Positions 10,870-35,088 of a stretch of 35,425 nucleotides of DNA are shown one piece after another. Under the pieces are notes generated by a model. The model was not told the DNA's origin. It did not search any database and was given only the letters and a program-made list of their open reading frames with translations. The stretch lies in the IMG/VR virus record IMGVR_UViG_3300013285_000038, positions 1 through 35,425 of that record; one strand, 5' to 3'. The position numbers were made by a program, and so were the translations under genes. Within the stretch, counting starts at the first letter, position 1. The number at the start of each line of letters is the position of its first letter. The DNA comes from a virus.

Positions 10870-10898
10870 ATTATATACTACTATTTAGAAAATGTCAA
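10870..10898 (-). promoter_or_regulatory. perfect consensus sigma70 promoter for the exonuclease
   Basis: TTGACA, 17 bp, TATAAT on the minus strand. The -10 box ends six bases before the exonuclease ATG, so transcription would start at or next to the ATG. The -35 box overlaps the end of the helicase gene. Confidence 0.92.
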
Positions 10899-12703
10899 GT
10901 CTTCTTTTTACCGAAAGCGTAGGTGTTCAAAAAATCACGCTGTCGTTGTGTCTTAAGCATATGTACGTTCGGGCAAACAGTTGCATGATTAGATGGGTCA
11001 TTGTTGTAACGGTTACCATCAATGTGATCTACTTGTAGAGTGGTTTTCCAATCTTCAATAAAGTCACCTAATGTGCTGGAGTCGTCCCCGTACTGCTCAA
11101 TATAACCCTTCACTGCTTGTTCAAAGCAAACACCCTTGCAGGCTTCGCAATGATCTTTGCGAAAAAGTTGGTTTAGCTGACCGTTGTCGAATGCGAGCCG
11201 CAAGCCAGACAATAACTTTTTTGGATCTTTCTGCCCGAATACTCCCTTCAAAATGTAGTCAATACCATCTACCATGTCAAACGTATCTGCTGTATAAAAC
11301 TCTTCAACTAATTTCATCAATTCAGTATCTTGTGGCAAGATAGCAAACGATGTGGACATTAGTGAATAGTAAGAACAAATCAACGATTTCACATTGTCTG
11401 ATTCTTTCAGCTTACGAATGAATTCAATGCCCATTGCATGATCACGGAAGAAAGGCAAACGACAAGTACGTGCAACAAACTGAGTGTAGCTATTGTGAAT
11501 AACTTTCTGTGCGGGCACTTTGCAAACAACTGCGGTAATCAAACGAGGGATGTTAATCCCCATTTTACCTGAATCTACAACTACCATCACAAGAGGGCGA
11601 TTCAGATACGCAGGGCTATTAGCCAATTTAATGCCATCGCTCATGCGCTTGATAGTCACACCGTCAAAGTGTTTTTCTTTAGATGTAGATACGAACAACA
11701 CACCATCAATGCGCTTTACAAACGCTTTGATATCTTTCATAACTTCGTCAATCGGAATACCGTTAACTGCGTTATTGCGACCGAGACTTAGAATAATGCC
11801 GGGCATCATCTTAGGCATCTTGTCAGTCATAGAGTCCCAGACACTTTGTGGAATCAACAATTGTTGATTTCGCACTTCATTTACTTGCCATGCAAATGTT
11901 TTGTATGCAGCGTGAAGTGTTTCATAAAGGTCCTCACGGTTACCGTGATAGTCAAAAAAGGTGAATGCGTTAGCTTCTTTGAATTTAGGCATTGTAGGCA
12001 ACTGCAAGTACATGTCAGCACCAACTAGTGTTTTCATGCGCTGACTTTGTGTGGGTGTTGCTGTCAAGTGAATGATAACAGTGCCAACATTCATCATAGC
12101 AGTTTGCATGTCAAACCATTTTGGTTCCCAGTTGTTATTATTAGTGCCCTGATCTTCTTTAGTAGTAGATGCGTCAGGGACACCCAAGCCACGGTGCGCT
12201 TCGTCATTGAAAATCAAATCAGGCAGCATCAGTTCAAAGTCATCGGGATTTAGTGGATCAAAATCTTCGTACAAGCCATACATGAATTGAGTAGTCATGA
12301 AAAAGTAACGAATGTCACCCGGCAAGTCAATGTCATTTTCCAATGCATATTTCAATTGCTTGCTGTCATACACTTTTACGAGATTCTTACCCATGTAAGT
12401 ACCATCGTACTTCATCATGCTGTCCAATGGCTCATCCACACATTCCTGAGAAGGTGCAGCAAAGAAAACGTTTTTGATTTTTTTGAACTTTTGTGCAACA
12501 ATGGTTGCAGTGTAATTAGTGATAGTAAAACTTTTACCACTACCAGTAGGAGCCTGAACAACAATAGCCTTTTTAGCTGATGATTTCAGGACCTTCTCAA
12601 TTGCGTCAACTACGTTGTCAACGAGGTATTCTTGCTGCAATGGTTCAATGTCAGGAACAAAAATTGAATCGATTGCGGCTGCTACAGTAAGACGTTTCTG
12701 CAT
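10895..12703 (-). CDS. SF2 helicase fused to an HNH nuclease domain
   Basis: Residues 1-480 form a superfamily 2 ATPase: Walker A APTGSGKS (51-58), DEAH box (167-170), motif III LTATPT (213-218) and motif VI QFVARTCRLP. The C-terminal part has a CEAC pair and then an HNH core, VDHIDGNRYNND with H560, then N572 and H581 (CPNVH). DEAH helicases of this kind resemble type III restriction Res subunits and T4 UvsW. The HNH domain suggests that unwinding or fork remodelling is coupled to cutting. It has its own promoter and stands beside exonuclease, nuclease and UV-repair genes. Confidence 0.88.
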   Translation of the reverse strand: MQKRLTVAAAIDSIFVPDIEPLQQEYLVDNVVDAIEKVLKSSAKKAIVVQAPTGSGKSFTITNYTATIVAQKFKKIKNVFFAAPSQECVDEPLDSMMKYDGTYMGKNLVKVYDSKQLKYALENDIDLPGDIRYFFMTTQFMYGLYEDFDPLNPDDFELMLPDLIFNDEAHRGLGVPDASTTKEDQGTNNNNWEPKWFDMQTAMMNVGTVIIHLTATPTQSQRMKTLVGADMYLQLPTMPKFKEANAFTFFDYHGNREDLYETLHAAYKTFAWQVNEVRNQQLLIPQSVWDSMTDKMPKMMPGIILSLGRNNAVNGIPIDEVMKDIKAFVKRIDGVLFVSTSKEKHFDGVTIKRMSDGIKLANSPAYLNRPLVMVVVDSGKMGINIPRLITAVVCKVPAQKVIHNSYTQFVARTCRLPFFRDHAMGIEFIRKLKESDNVKSLICSYYSLMSTSFAILPQDTELMKLVEEFYTADTFDMVDGIDYILKGVFGQKDPKKLLSGLRLAFDNGQLNQLFRKDHCEACKGVCFEQAVKGYIEQYGDDSSTLGDFIEDWKTTLQVDHIDGNRYNNDPSNHATVCPNVHMLKTQRQRDFLNTYAFGKKKT

Positions 12704-20277: not shown

Positions 20278-20501
20278 TCTTCAACTCCGAAATCTTGTCT
20301 AATCAAATTAGCACAATCAATTGCTAATGCACCCTCATAGGGCAATCCTGCACATTTTGCAGCAAGCTCCATGCAGATATTAGCGCATTCTTTCGCAATC
20401 ATCTCGGCAAAGAATTCTATCTCTTTATTAGTCACTGCTTTGTTATCGTATGCAATGTATAGGCCGCAGTCATCTGCGATTTCTTTAATTCGTTTGTTCA
20501 T
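20274..20501 (-). CDS. FGVEE-family phage protein, paralogue of 160-408
   Basis: The 75-aa protein starts MNKRIKEIADDCGLYIAYDN and shares FAEMIAKEC and the FGVEE end with the 82-aa protein at 160-408. The C-terminus is followed by an overlapping membrane-peptide gene. Function unknown; its multi-copy nature in one genome is the notable point. Confidence 0.65.
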   Translation of the reverse strand: MNKRIKEIADDCGLYIAYDNKAVTNKEIEFFAEMIAKECANICMELAAKCAGLPYEGALAIDCANLIRQDFGVEE

Positions 20502-20562
20502 TTTTTGCTTTCAATATGCTAAACAGAATAGGACAGTCCCATGGATTACCCTGAGCCATTGA

Positions 20563-20826
20563 CCAGATGCCGGCAAAGGTAAGACTGCTTGGAACAAAGG
20601 TCTTCCGGGTACATGGGTTGGTAAAACCCATAGTGAAGAAAGTAAACAAAAGATTTCCATAAGTAAAAAAGGTCAATCTGCTGGTGAAAAGAATCCAATG
20701 TTTGGCAAGAGTGCTGTTGCAGGACGAAAATGGTATAATGACGGTATCAAAACTTATTACCTATTCCCAAATGATCCGGCAACAGAAACTCTTATCGCTG
20801 GTCGGTTGAAGAAACCAATCGCATAA
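20563..20826 (+). pseudogene. remnant of a NUMOD3-bearing homing endonuclease
   Basis: On the plus strand an 87-codon open stretch with no start codon at its head (TGA at 20560-20562) reads GKGKTAWNKGLPGTWVGKTH and then SEESKQKISISKKGQ, a NUMOD3 DNA-binding repeat. It ends with GRKWYNDGIKTYYLFPNDP, the C-terminal segment typical of phage GIY-YIG/HNH homing enzymes (compare KKKKWMNNGINCAFVEPDD in the intact gene at 21477-22145). The nuclease domain is missing. Its last 35 bp lie antisense over the 3' end of folE. The rest of the folE-downstream gap (20502-20562) shows nothing else. Confidence 0.8.
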
Positions 20827-21475
20827 ACTCTGCACGGGCGGCTGGATCAGTTTTGAAACCACCGCCTAGTTTAGAAGTTATGGTAGATGCTGAGTTATCT
20901 TCCACGCCCCTTGAAGAAACACATAGGTGTGTAGCATCAACTACTACAGCAATATCATCCGTCTCCAAAATGAATTGCAAAGCATGAAAAATTTGTTCGG
21001 TGAGCCGTTCTTGAATTTGGGGCCGTCTACTAAAATATTCTACAATTCTAGGCATTTTACTTAACCCTAGTACTTTATTTTTAGGAACATACGCAATTGT
21101 TGCTTTTCCTACAATTGGTAAAATATGATGTTCGCACAAGGATTGAACTGTTATATTTCTCTCTACTACCATTTCGTCATATTTCATCTTATTATCGACA
21201 GTAGTGCATTTGGGGAATGCTTCGTAATCAAGGCCCCACATCGTTTCATTCACAAACATTTTTGCAACACGCTTTGGTGTTTCAATCAAACTATCATCAC
21301 TCAGGTCAAGCCCTAGTGTTTCCATGATAGCTTTGAAGTGACCTTCAATGATGTGAATCTTATCAGTACGGATAAGTTTGTTTGGCGTGGATGGAGTTTC
21401 TACTCCCATCTTAACTAGATGTTCGTGAACTCGTTGACCCAATTCTGGATCGCACTTGGTTTTATTATATGACAA
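20792..21475 (-). CDS. folE: GTP cyclohydrolase I
   Basis: This 227-aa enzyme converts GTP to dihydroneopterin triphosphate, the first step to 7-deazaguanines. The zinc site is C114 in QSLCEHHILP and C185 in ATHLCVSSRG, with H116/H117 and H183 in place. The frame starts with TTG at 21475 (MSYNKTKCDPELG), two bases from the stop of the GIY-YIG gene, behind AAAGGAAATATAAA. A second, ATG-started copy of the first seven codons lies at 22209, upstream of the homing gene. The 3' end overlaps a homing-endonuclease remnant on the opposite strand. Confidence 0.93.
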   Translation of the reverse strand: MSYNKTKCDPELGQRVHEHLVKMGVETPSTPNKLIRTDKIHIIEGHFKAIMETLGLDLSDDSLIETPKRVAKMFVNETMWGLDYEAFPKCTTVDNKMKYDEMVVERNITVQSLCEHHILPIVGKATIAYVPKNKVLGLSKMPRIVEYFSRRPQIQERLTEQIFHALQFILETDDIAVVVDATHLCVSSRGVEDNSASTITSKLGGGFKTDPAARAEFMRLVSSTDQR

Positions 21476-21476
21476 T

Positions 21477-22145
21477 TTATATTTCCTTTGAAAACTTATT
21501 TGAGCCTCTGCCCATATTGTATCCCCTTGCTATGTACAAGTCAATATCATCCGGTTCTACGAATGCACAATTAATCCCATTATTCATCCATTTTTTCTTC
21601 TTCATTGACAATGACATTTTTAATAGTTCTGCATCTGATTTCAATTTACCATACCTAGGTGCATTCTCGCCCACCCTACCAAAGTTCTTACCTTTTTTGC
21701 CCTTAGATATGTTAGCACAATGTTCCGAAGAGTTAGCGCCTCGCTGAACGCCGCGCGTCTGGGCCGCAATCTTTTCAGTATGTTCTTTAGTACGAGGTAC
21801 CGACTTCGGTTTCCTCATTTTCTGCTTGGTTTCTTCACTGAGTGTAAACCGAATAGTCGTACCGGGAATATTTCGGTTTATGAAATCAGTTCTTTGTAGG
21901 ACCTTCATCCTGCGTAATACTGTTATCTCCCACTTAATAGCTGCTAAGGGATCAATAAACACTTTACGAACCTCTGTTACAAAGCTATCTTTTCCAGATT
22001 CAGCAATCAACTGCTGAATATCCTTTGATGAGGTAAAGTACTTCACCCAAAGGTCTCCGGGGTGACAGCCTTTAGCAAAGCGGAGTCCATAGTAAACTCT
22101 GCCAGTCGGTATATGTTTTATGAGATAAGTGTATGGTTGGTGCAT
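21477..22145 (-). CDS. GIY-YIG homing endonuclease with NUMOD3 repeats, inserted at folE
   Basis: The 222-aa protein begins YTYLIKHIPTGRVYYGLR, a GIY-YIG variant (YLI...YYG). Then comes a catalytic-domain helix with WEITVLRRMKVL, NUMOD3-like repeats (RFTLSEETKQKMRK, PRTKEHTEKIAAQTRG) and a C-terminal WMNNGINCAFVEPDD segment. It would cut a DNA site in folE genes lacking the insert and copy itself there. A GATAAATA late-type promoter and AAGGATTATC ribosome-binding site precede it. Its stop is two bases before the folE TTG start. Confidence 0.88.
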   Translation of the reverse strand: MHQPYTYLIKHIPTGRVYYGLRFAKGCHPGDLWVKYFTSSKDIQQLIAESGKDSFVTEVRKVFIDPLAAIKWEITVLRRMKVLQRTDFINRNIPGTTIRFTLSEETKQKMRKPKSVPRTKEHTEKIAAQTRGVQRGANSSEHCANISKGKKGKNFGRVGENAPRYGKLKSDAELLKMSLSMKKKKWMNNGINCAFVEPDDIDLYIARGYNMGRGSNKFSKEI

Positions 22146-22209
22146 GATAATCCTTGTTCGTACAAGTATTTATCATTTTTTCGCTGTATTTTGTTTTATT
22201 GTAACTCAT
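22072..22209 (-). pseudogene. detached 5' end of folE upstream of the homing gene
   Basis: ATG at 22209 behind the strong AAGGAAGGTTATC site opens a 45-codon frame reading MSYNKTKYSEKM. The first seven residues equal the present folE N-terminus (MSYNKTKC), although several codons differ synonymously (AGT/TCA, TAC/TAT, ACA/ACC, AAA/AAG). After residue eight the frame runs into the homing-endonuclease promoter and gene. Best read as the original folE start, cut off by the insertion and perhaps still translated as a leader peptide. Confidence 0.7.
22167..22174 (-). promoter_or_regulatory. late-type promoter (GATAAATA) of the folE-linked GIY-YIG gene
   Basis: GATAAATA on the minus strand, 22 bp before the ATG at 22145. 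The 15-mer AAAAAATGATAAATA is identical to that before the plus-strand GIY-YIG gene at 30881. Confidence 0.6.
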
Positions 22210-22241
22210 GATAACCTTCCTTTGTGATGGTTTGTTTTTGA

Positions 22242-22280
22242 AATGTAAGCTACCGTTGTGTAGCTTACATTCTATTTATG
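22242..22280 (-). promoter_or_regulatory. 12-bp perfect hairpin next to a CATAAATA box
   Basis: Bases 22242-22253 (AATGTAAGCTAC) and 22260-22271 pair perfectly around a 6-base loop. On the minus strand CATAAATA (22273-22280) ends one base before the stem, so a transcript from it would begin in or at the hairpin. No U-run follows on the minus strand, so it is more likely a 5' stabilising leader than a terminator. The rest of the gap 22281-22341 holds only a start-less frame ending MKNLLGAKAEA, which I do not call. Confidence 0.55.
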
Positions 22281-22341
22281 CTTCAGCCTTCGCGCCCAGT
22301 AAATTCTTCATCATTACATACTGGTCATAGATTTTACAGAG

Positions 22342-22467
22342 TTATGTGTCTTCATTGAAGGCCCATTGAGTAACTGCTTCTATTTTTAACTCAGCCAACT
22401 GATGTTCATTTAAGGTAGGATATTTGGGTTTCGCTAATGATTCCCAAATTTCCCGTTGTGTTTTCAC
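22342..22467 (-). CDS. possible 41-aa protein, GTG start
   Basis: GTG at 22467 overlaps the Hc1-like stop region and follows CCAAGGCTTAAT. The peptide reads MKTQREIWESLAKPKYPTLN and ends AVTQWAFNEDT. The longer ATG frame through the Hc1-like gene is a shadow. Support is ribosome-binding site and position only. Confidence 0.4.
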   Translation of the reverse strand: MKTQREIWESLAKPKYPTLNEHQLAELKIEAVTQWAFNEDT

Positions 22468-22468
22468 A

Positions 22469-22657
22469 TTAAGCCTTGGCTTCTTTTCGTGCGTTCTTAG
22501 TCTCGGTAATTTCATTACGACGAGCCTTGACTGCCTTTGATAGCTCGCCCAATGCTTTGCGGGCACGAGTACCTGCTGCTGAGTTACCTGCTTCAAATTT
22601 TGCTGATTCAGCTTGGTATGCTGCGATTTGTGTTTCGATTTCTGTATGTGCGCTCAT
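22469..22657 (-). CDS. small histone H1 (Hc1)-like protein
   Basis: The 62-aa Ala/Lys/Arg-rich helical protein reads AYQAESAKFEAGNSAAGTRA then RKALGELSKAVKARRNEI. The KFEAGN-x-AAG-x-RARKAL pattern matches chlamydial Hc1-type and bacterial H1-like proteins. It could bind DNA and alter host nucleoid structure, or package phage DNA. It starts inside the last codons of the acidic protein. The family resemblance is from memory. Confidence 0.6.
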   Translation of the reverse strand: MSAHTEIETQIAAYQAESAKFEAGNSAAGTRARKALGELSKAVKARRNEITETKNARKEAKA

Positions 22658-23325
22658 TTTGTTTCCTTTTGTTGAGTTTCGGTTTCTGGATTATTTACAA
22701 GCCCTCGCCATTGCTTGATTCCCTCTGACAACTTGATACCATCTAATTGCCATTCTGTCCCTGTCCATTCCGCCATTTTGATTTGCGGAAACGGCCATGC
22801 TGTTACTCCACAGATCACACATTCGTATGTGCCAACTTGACCTGGATTAATACTTGCTTGATGCCACGGGGTGAATTTAGATTCGTCTTCGTCTTCGTCT
22901 TCGTCTTCCTCATCGGCAGAAGTGAATTCTTCACCAGTGTCAGTGTTAGTAAGTTTCAATGGACCTTGAAAGAAATACACCGTGTCATCATTGCTCCAAC
23001 CTAATTCTTCAAGGCCTTCGAAATGATTTTCATCCCATGCTTCTTCGATTGCTTCGCGGTCTTCATCTGACATATCTGCTGGCCATGTCCAATCAGCCCA
23101 GCAGCCATCGTCAAGCTCATCTAGTTCCCACTCGTACTCATCACCACCGAGTTCATATTCTTCATCATCGCCTGACAAGTCAATATCAGGTTTCTCATCA
23201 CTTTCGCAATAGAATTTACCCCAGCGATAACCTTCTTCGCGGATAATAGTTTTACCATCCTTGCACCAGTGCTGTCGCTCTAATGCACTTTTCTTATACT
23301 CGGTTGTTAGTTCCCATGTTGCCAT
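22654..23325 (-). CDS. highly acidic conserved phage protein
   Basis: A 223-aa protein with a very acidic first two-thirds (DIDLSGDDEEYELGGDEYEW, then an EDEDEDED run) and a CxxC in YECVICGVTAWPF. The segment with CWADWTWPADMSDEDREAIE is shared by hypothetical proteins of T4-like phages (recalled). The charge and aromatic content would suit a DNA-mimic or chaperone role, but no function is established. It is followed in the same transcript by the basic Hc1-like protein; an acidic-basic partnership is conceivable. A four-unit hexanucleotide repeat encodes the ED run. Confidence 0.7.
   Translation of the reverse strand: MATWELTTEYKKSALERQHWCKDGKTIIREEGYRWGKFYCESDEKPDIDLSGDDEEYELGGDEYEWELDELDDGCWADWTWPADMSDEDREAIEEAWDENHFEGLEELGWSNDDTVYFFQGPLKLTNTDTGEEFTSADEEDEDEDEDESKFTPWHQASINPGQVGTYECVICGVTAWPFPQIKMAEWTGTEWQLDGIKLSEGIKQWRGLVNNPETETQQKETK
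22883..22906. repeat. hexanucleotide repeat (TCGTCT)4
   Basis: Four exact tandem copies, encoding Glu-Asp pairs on the minus strand in the acidic protein. Slippage here would change tract length without a frameshift. Confidence 0.9.
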
Positions 23326-30880: not shown

Positions 30881-31558
30881 ATGACTATTTATAAATTATA
30901 TGTGATGACTCACAATATAACTGGGTTAAAGTATCTCGGGTACACCACTAGAGACTTATCTAAATATTTTGGAAGCGGTATTTATTGGCAAAGACACCTA
31001 AAAATACACGGATTTAATATTTCGCGTGAACTGATACATGAATGCACCACCCTACAAGAACTAACTCATATCGGTAGACATTACAGTGACTTATGGAACG
31101 TAGTCCATGGGGTTAATGCATTGGGTAAGAAAATATGGGCCAATGCAAAGCCGGAAGAAGGAAGGGGTGGGGGTACATTTTTTACTCTACATAATCCTAT
31201 GAAAAATCCTGAAATAGTTGCAAAAAGATCCGGTGCCGTTCATCATATGAAAGATCCCAGTAGGCGTGAAGCGCAATCAAAAAGAATGACCAGGCCTGAC
31301 GCTGCATGGAATAATGATGCTGCAAAAATTAAAAAATGCGGAGATAATCATTATTTGAGAAAAGGTGCACCTAATAGTAATCCAGCATTTGATCATGCAG
31401 TATATCTATTTGAAAATATGTCCACTAAAGAAATCATGCAATCAACTGCATATGATTTTTGCATCAAGACTGGAGCTTCCAGAGGAAATGTTAGTCAATT
31501 GGTTAATCAGAAAAAATCTCCTAAATCAGTTAAGGGATGGAGATTAAAACCAATTTAG
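30881..31558 (+). CDS. GIY-YIG homing endonuclease (plus strand)
   Basis: The 225-aa protein starts YKLYVMTHNITGLKYLGYTT, the GIY-YIG variant (KLYV...YLGY), followed by KYFGSGIYWQRHLKIHGF as in T4 Seg proteins. It ends with ATYDF-like helix-turn sequence (DFCIKTGASRGNVSQLV) and KGWRL, a NUMOD-type DNA-binding end. It is the only intact plus-strand gene in the window, placed between DNA polymerase and the DsbA-like gene. Expected role: spread into unoccupied phage genomes by cutting nearby DNA, probably in the polymerase or DsbA-like region. Confidence 0.88.
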   Translation: MTIYKLYVMTHNITGLKYLGYTTRDLSKYFGSGIYWQRHLKIHGFNISRELIHECTTLQELTHIGRHYSDLWNVVHGVNALGKKIWANAKPEEGRGGGTFFTLHNPMKNPEIVAKRSGAVHHMKDPSRREAQSKRMTRPDAAWNNDAAKIKKCGDNHYLRKGAPNSNPAFDHAVYLFENMSTKEIMQSTAYDFCIKTGASRGNVSQLVNQKKSPKSVKGWRLKPI

Positions 31559-34482: not shown

Positions 34483-35088
34483 CTAAGGTGTGTTCTTTAA
34501 GCTCTTTCTTAGTCTAGCTTCTTTTGATGATACTGCTACATACGTATGAGTACTCAACGGGCCCGTACGGTCCACCATAGTAAATATAGCTTTAGAAACT
34601 CGTAGGCTATTTCCTTCTAAATCCGTAACTGGAACTGTACCTATACTAGACTGACTAATCTTTTCTCGGCCAGCAGTTGTTAGTGGTTTTAGATTTTTTG
34701 TTTTATGTTCATTGATACGTTCAGGAGTCCAGTAACTCTTGTTCCACTCACTATGTCTTTTCTTGCGTGAGCTATCCCATATAGGCTTTGGCGGTTGACC
34801 ATGCAATGCTTTATTAGTTAGTATCCCGTTCGCTTCAATCCCCCGGCGACCGTAAATTAATATGTAATAATTTTCTCGATTATATGCAATAGCCTCATCT
34901 TCAATGTTGCTTTCCAACTCAATGATCTTAGGTTCAAGTCCTACTAGTTGTATTTCCTTAATTAAGTTGACTTTCTCTGAGGTTTCATCCTGTTCCCTGA
35001 GGTGGGAAAACTTTCTATTATTCTTTCCCTTACCTATATAAAAAGGGAGGTCTGTCCGAGGATCGATATAAGCATATATGTAATACAT
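34483..35088 (-). CDS. third GIY-YIG homing endonuclease
   Basis: The 201-aa protein begins YYIYAYIDPRTDLPFYIGKG, a textbook GIY-YIG opening (YIY...FYIGKG). It continues RKFSHLREQDETSEKVNLIK and ESNIEDEAIAYNRENYYI, with the catalytic Glu expected in the latter, and ends in a NUMOD-like DNA-binding region (TTAGREKISQSS, DLEGNSLRVSKAIF). GATAAATA lies four bases before its ATG. It sits beside the adhesin-metallopeptidase operon. Confidence 0.88.
   Translation of the reverse strand: MYYIYAYIDPRTDLPFYIGKGKNNRKFSHLREQDETSEKVNLIKEIQLVGLEPKIIELESNIEDEAIAYNRENYYILIYGRRGIEANGILTNKALHGQPPKPIWDSSRKKRHSEWNKSYWTPERINEHKTKNLKPLTTAGREKISQSSIGTVPVTDLEGNSLRVSKAIFTMVDRTGPLSTHTYVAVSSKEARLRKSLKNTP

Follow-up and report, generated by a model that had tools for sequence, protein, structure and literature searches.

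A phage homing gene inserted after codon 7 of folE appears to bring a replacement 5' end for the gene it interrupts

A mobile GIY-YIG element has very probably inserted after codon 7 of a phage folE gene, bringing a replacement 5' end that, as read from the DNA, would remake FolE whole. The element lies on the minus strand of the window, by which we mean the whole stretch of 35,425 nucleotides analyzed (IMG/VR virus record IMGVR_UViG_3300013285_000038). Homing genes persist in important genes by splicing, as parts of introns or inteins, or they sit between genes. The arrangement described here points to another survival route, in which the element supplies the missing gene piece, as synthetic home-and-rescue drives do. 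Among the neighbors in the window, profile searches matched a PTPS (queD-like) gene, a DNA polymerase and, weakly, a radical-SAM (queE-like) gene, and we infer that the source is a T4-like phage producing 7-deazaguanine precursors. A megablast search of 24 kb against cultured phages gave no match.

Two folE starts flank a GIY-YIG gene

The minus strand reads, in order, native folE leader with its Shine-Dalgarno sequence, ATG 22209 and codons 1-7, a 43-nt leader, the GIY-YIG gene, one base, and folE. The features are as follows, in window positions.

22243..22270, minus strand: stem-loop AUGUAAGCUACacaacgGUAGCUUACAU in the native folE leader, by folding; similar in insert-free loci, for example L006
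22215..22223, minus strand: native folE Shine-Dalgarno sequence AAAGGAAGG, identical in insert-free relatives
22189..22209, minus strand: stranded native folE codons 1-7, ATGAGTTACAATAAAACAAAA, encoding MSYNKTK; an exact match to native folE starts
22072..22209, minus strand: dead-end upstream ORF of 45 codons, from the ORF list, out of frame with the homing gene, whose start it overlaps
22146..22188, minus strand: left end of the element, which is the homing gene leader; begins at the end of native folE sequence in five of five lineages
22144..22176, minus strand: predicted hairpin over the Shine-Dalgarno sequence (AAGGA, 22155-22151) and start codon of the homing gene
22167..22174, minus strand: predicted late-promoter-like sequence GATAAATA in the 5' arm of the hairpin, from the enrichment of NATAAATA upstream of homing genes
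21477..22145, minus strand: GIY-YIG homing endonuclease gene, 222 amino acids, from PHROG 314 and a model compared with the I-TevI catalytic domain
21484..21489, minus strand: AAAGGA in the last homing-gene codons, the putative Shine-Dalgarno sequence of the restarted folE; most elements in folE, ugd and uvsX have a counterpart
21455..21475, minus strand: element-borne replacement codons 1-7, TTGTCATATAATAAAACCAAG; identical in L082 despite a differing folE body, and matching no native start
20792..21475, minus strand: restarted folE, GTP cyclohydrolase I, 227 amino acids (Pfam GTP_cyclohydroI, E 7.5e-64)

The first-pass annotation, made from the letters alone, had described an ATG at 22209 with a strong ribosome-binding site that encodes MSYNKTK and then runs into the GIY-YIG gene. 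We confirmed this start, which is preceded by AAAGGAAGG at 22223-22215. The ORF that it opens reads MSYNKTKYSEKM... and ends after 45 codons, in a frame that differs from that of the homing gene. The same annotation had folE starting again at a TTG with the same residues in other synonymous codons, and indeed TTG 21475 lies one base past the homing-gene stop. When ATGAGTTACAATAAAACAAAA is compared with TTGTCATATAATAAAACCAAG, residues 2-7 are equal, 6 of 18 bases differ, and the start codon differs too. That FolE is kept intact also held at the level of a full-length ORF, because the family profile is covered in full by the downstream folE, read from the TTG.

A TTG opens the restarted gene in the window and L082, in L083 and in L299, and none of 55 distinct native starts uses it. 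Because TTG is a weaker start codon than ATG, FolE output may be reduced. With a gap of 1 nt and a Shine-Dalgarno sequence inside the last homing-gene codons, the layout fits translation of folE from messages that include the homing gene. For annotators, this means that the strong native upstream start is a dead end and that the true start of the target gene sits behind the homing gene.

Relatives with and without the insert define a single site

We took 80 folE loci from IMG/VR, 78 of which have no insert. All 78 have a single ATG start, and many have the common leader ...ccatcacaaaggaaggttatc. An insertion into folE predicts that such relatives begin MSYNKTK; 54 of the 78 do so exactly, and most of the rest have variants such as MSFNKQK. 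L006, on a 117-kb contig without the window's homing gene, matches the joined flanks of the window at 200 of 213 bases around the insertion site. Over the folE gene the match falls to ~78%, and the locus is therefore a mosaic.

The insertion always follows codon 7, in the window and in four further lineages with homing proteins 61-99% identical. Identity to the window's homing protein is 99% for L082, 77% for L083, 65% for L084, 61% for L299 (= L300 = L307) and 65% for the truncated L301. Each of these loci has the native leader and seven codons followed by the homing gene, and folE restarts wherever the insert-bearing contig extends far enough. One site is found in both states, occupied in five lineages and empty in 78 loci, and every element-bearing locus is a metagenome contig. 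Codons 2-7 of the upstream copy were the exact native allele in the loci compared (window, L082, L083 and L084); those of the downstream copy never were. Because the upstream copy ends at one codon with the homing gene next in five folE lineages, we conclude from these alignments that the duplicated start is not due to chance.

Identity between the window and L082 is ~99% from the leader as far as folE codon 8 (TGCGA) and drops to ~70% over the folE sequence beyond. From this comparison of sequences we conclude that the spare 5' end travels as part of the element. The earlier proposal of an insertion carrying its own folE 5' end is thereby borne out, with the insertion placed after codon 7 and the spare end co-travelling with the homing gene.

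Two other readings of the duplicated start can be weighed against these loci. If the upstream MSYNKTK were a matter of chance or an independent small gene, its strong ribosome-binding site would make sense, but in every locus compared both the seven residues and the leader in its entirety are exactly those of native folE starts, and there is no in-frame conservation between lineages beyond codon 7. We looked for an independent conserved gene, as the first-pass annotation had suggested, and instead found a peptide that differs between lineages past codon 7, in an ORF of lineage-dependent length (28-45 codons) that is mostly the homing gene read out of frame. The insert-free alleles rule this reading out, and we give it next to no probability. 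Because a homing gene within coding sequence usually signals an intron, the interruption seen here could be read as an intron, an intein or a bypassed segment, with the first exon joined to the second in RNA or protein. Against this, the downstream ORF is already complete, and joining would yield MSYNKTK twice; in addition, the frames of the homing gene and the upstream ORF differ in five of five lineages, and the left leader is wholly different between lineages. A search of 20500-22700 against Rfam found no intron family, on which ground we rejected a group I intron with a homing gene. Splicing or bypassing of any kind is thus very improbable, and insertion of an element with its own folE start is the reading we carry forward.

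The inserted gene has a GIY-YIG fold

The window GIY-YIG protein matched PHROG 314 (homing endonuclease) with E 7.6e-16. With Pfam SegE_GIY-YIG it scored slightly below the cut-off, and the L084 protein slightly above. Searching the PDB by sequence with the homing protein identified no relative, whereas a fold search did match: the AlphaFold model, with pLDDT ~80 in the N-terminal domain and low values in the remainder, superposed on the I-TevI catalytic domain with Z 8.7 over 86 residues (rmsd 2.5). The predicted catalytic residues R22 and E73 are invariant across ten relatives. The modeled fold, together with the invariant Arg and Glu, leads us to place the window gene among the GIY-YIG homing genes. 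The last ~40 residues (window 21477-21650, minus strand) are closest to those of L084, and the rest is closer to L083; target-recognition ends may have been swapped between elements.

The layout recurs in uvsX and a ugd-like gene

We found the same layout in uvsX, in five insertions (L376 = L114, L378, L379 = L382, L380 and L381). In these elements the native start runs to ...TTTGA (MTKPFD, MAKPFD or MAKAFD) and is followed by the homing gene; L381 starts with TTG, and its locus is truncated. The four loci that reach the restarted gene read MARPFDV, MKPFDV, MRPFDV or MANRPFDV. Between L378 and L379, the homing gene is 87% identical in nucleotides and the restarted-start stretch CCGTTTGATGTAACAAAATT is common to both, whereas the gene body (~68%) and the left flank (42%) are those of unrelated alleles. 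CCGTTTGATGTAACAAAATT occurred in none of 80 insert-free uvsX loci. In a UDP-glucose-dehydrogenase-like gene (ugd), the stranded piece is GFIGIG or GFVGIG with its start codon gone, followed by a restarted gene (MKKCKVGFIGIGKLG). Across folE, uvsX and ugd, the offset from the homing-gene stop to the new start is -19 to +3 nt, and the last homing-gene codons (AAG GAA or similar) provide a Shine-Dalgarno sequence in most elements of all three genes. In one ugd-like locus (L154:2426-2551), only a short 3' remnant of the homing gene separates the native leader from the restarted gene; this is likely the scar of element loss.

When 106 homing-gene loci were scanned for duplicated N-termini, against a null that was contaminated by same-target-family pairs and so gives P values that are too large, folE and ugd stood out. 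The peptide score missed uvsX, which was detected at the DNA level. Most related homing genes in the scan had no duplicated 5' end, and the design is therefore a subset, not the rule.

Other loci represented different designs. In two cultured phages, Vibrio phage phi-pp2 (L131:3641-4342) and phi-ST2 (L132:3641-4342), a homing gene overlaps the folE 3' end on the opposite strand. This gene is absent from KVP40, and the pair may represent the reverse situation, in which the 3' end is the part replaced. In Aeromonas phage PX29 (L296:1299-4288), terminase gene 17 (gp17) is annotated as a pair of ORFs that bear split-intein halves and a GIY-YIG domain. ACP17 gp6 is preceded by a GIY-YIG gene that overlaps it, yet a duplicated start was not detectable.

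The homing gene is predicted to start within a hairpin

The start of the homing gene is predicted to lie in a hairpin, AUGAUAA-AUA-CUUGU(loop)ACAAG-GA-UUAUCAU, in the window and L083, with energies of -9.6 and -9.3 kcal/mol, respectively, and none of 200 shuffles was as stable. L084 and L299 have hairpins of other sequences and like layout, L084 alone not being significant (14 of 200 shuffles). The layout is thus predicted in four lineages and is significant by itself in the window and L083. Overlapping the 5' arm is the motif NATAAATA. Of 48 related homing genes, a set that is not fully independent, 21 have it in the 60 nt before their start, compared with 0 of 48 at each of two control stretches. 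It scored highest among 21 permuted words upstream of homing genes. By distance to the next ATG it was indistinguishable from other AT-rich words, but position relative to homing-gene starts did separate it. When fragments beginning just past NATAAATA were folded, L299 still gave a weak predicted hairpin, and the other three of the four lineages gave none.

In I-TevI, segB and mobE, a hairpin holds the ribosome-binding site and a late promoter gives late transcripts without one arm (PMC2988022). The elements described here resemble them in the predicted placement of the ribosome-binding site in a hairpin with a late-promoter-like motif in its 5' arm; they differ in that the motif is NATAAATA and the hairpin sequences vary between lineages. 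By this analogy, we predict I-TevI-style late-promoter/hairpin control of the homing gene. NATAAATA also lies a few bases before an ATG at window 35100, 34384, 10872, 8745 and 7587 (minus strand), where late messages may be nearly leaderless.

A model for insertion, expression and origin

In our model, the left end of the element has the late-promoter-like sequence in a predicted hairpin that would mask the homing gene's own ribosome-binding site, and the right end has the Shine-Dalgarno sequence in the last homing-gene codons, the start codon and replacement codons 1-7. The native leader with its codons 1-7 is stranded by the insertion in an upstream ORF that leads nowhere, and whole FolE, the structure of which is seen in the ORF, would be expressed from the start that the element brings. 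If control resembles that of I-TevI, readthrough transcripts would give FolE but scarcely any endonuclease, whose ribosome-binding site would become accessible on late transcripts. Homing would cut insert-free folE around the leader and the opening codons, the element and its flanks would be copied in, and the insert would itself divide the cut site.

The upstream start might instead be retained as a regulatory upstream ORF, with ribosomes from the native site crossing the homing-gene start out of frame and repressing its translation. Consistent with this, the frame offset over the homing-gene start is the same in five of five folE lineages, though leader length varies by 12 nt. However, a TAG closes the upstream ORF after six codons in three of five uvsX elements, and the native start codon is gone in ugd elements. 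Because of these closed and startless cases, the upstream ORF is no general requirement, and we consider a regulatory role improbable.

Selection on the replacement codons, in line with the first-pass suggestion that the insertion perhaps destroys the cut site, is a further possibility, which we regard as doubtful. Recoding would make the element-bearing gene uncuttable and prevent loss by recombination between the copies. The two copies differ by 6, 3, 6 and 5 of 18 bases, compared with an average of 2.9 for random native pairs; the summed excess gives P 0.009 by locus and 0.03 by distinct allele, from four pairs and a pool of related alleles. In four of four complete lineages one copy has an AGY serine codon and the other a TCN codon, as large a change as synonymous codons allow, and the restarted start of uvsX likewise differs from native alleles. 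On the other hand, the differences fall inside natural allele variation, since random native pairs reach 7. Codons 3-7 are unchanged in L083, where 4 of 21 bases differ, and the spare copy of L083 is therefore close to sequences known to be invaded. Moreover, the insert by itself already parts both halves of any site that spans the insertion; if it divides the homing site in this way, immunity could arise without recoding. The copy-to-copy differences, only slightly larger than those between random native alleles, are suggestive. A simpler origin of the duplicated start would be one-sided repair. The replacement 5' end would most probably be the folE start of another phage, directly behind a homing gene. 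A recipient cut near codon 7 would be mended from a donor with the homing gene directly before folE; it would keep its own leader and codons 1-7 and acquire the start of the donor gene.

Discussion

The element works like a natural home-and-rescue cassette, judged by its layout: an endonuclease of the I-TevI/seg kind with a built-in rescue. A replacement for the interrupted part is present at the sequence level, as a complete ORF and a co-travelling 5' end. As in synthetic home-and-rescue drives (PMC7968924), a nuclease gene is inserted into a conserved gene and is accompanied by a recoded segment to preserve that gene's function; those drives are engineered, with cleavage resistance of the rescue designed, whereas this element is natural and known from its DNA. 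More tentatively, and with somewhat less than even confidence, we propose that such phage homing elements form a class aimed at the opening codons of important genes. Each would bring a ribosome-binding site, a start codon and a 5' end recoded to resist cleavage, and the class, evolved for at least three genes (folE, uvsX and ugd), would act as a natural home-and-rescue drive in place of an intron or intein.

Several known systems share part of this design. The T4 genes segA to segG (PMC2988022) are likewise GIY-YIG endonuclease genes without an intron, next to conserved genes in a T4-like phage, and segA targets uvsX (PMC2988022). Those genes are intergenic, whereas here the gene lies inside coding sequence after a few codons, with a replacement 5' end; a free-standing location of the seg type does not apply, as the insertion follows folE codon 7. 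In Aeh1 mobE/nrdA, T4 mobA/gene 60 and seg43 (PMC2988022), a homing gene also lies within conserved coding sequence. There two polypeptides result, whereas here one complete ORF is restored, and we rejected a split gene of the mobE/nrdA type because the downstream folE alone covers the full family profile. Fungal mitochondrial homing genes in atp6, cox2 and rps3 (PMC4019555) similarly displace one gene end and restore the gene with a related spare end. That end is C-terminal, whereas the phage element brings an N-terminal end with a start codon and ribosome-binding site. In the open-access literature we found no description of a phage homing gene with a spare 5' end. With the layout present in three genes, and with alleles both bearing and lacking the insert available in nature, both the avoidance of self-cutting and the origin of the element become directly testable.

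The window contains further endonuclease-like genes. One GIY-YIG-like gene at 34483-35088 (minus strand) matches PHROG 314 (homing endonuclease), and a second, at 30881-31558 (plus strand), was judged from its translation. At 10895-12703 (minus strand) lies a helicase-like ORF, the C-terminal part of which matches HNH endonuclease families.
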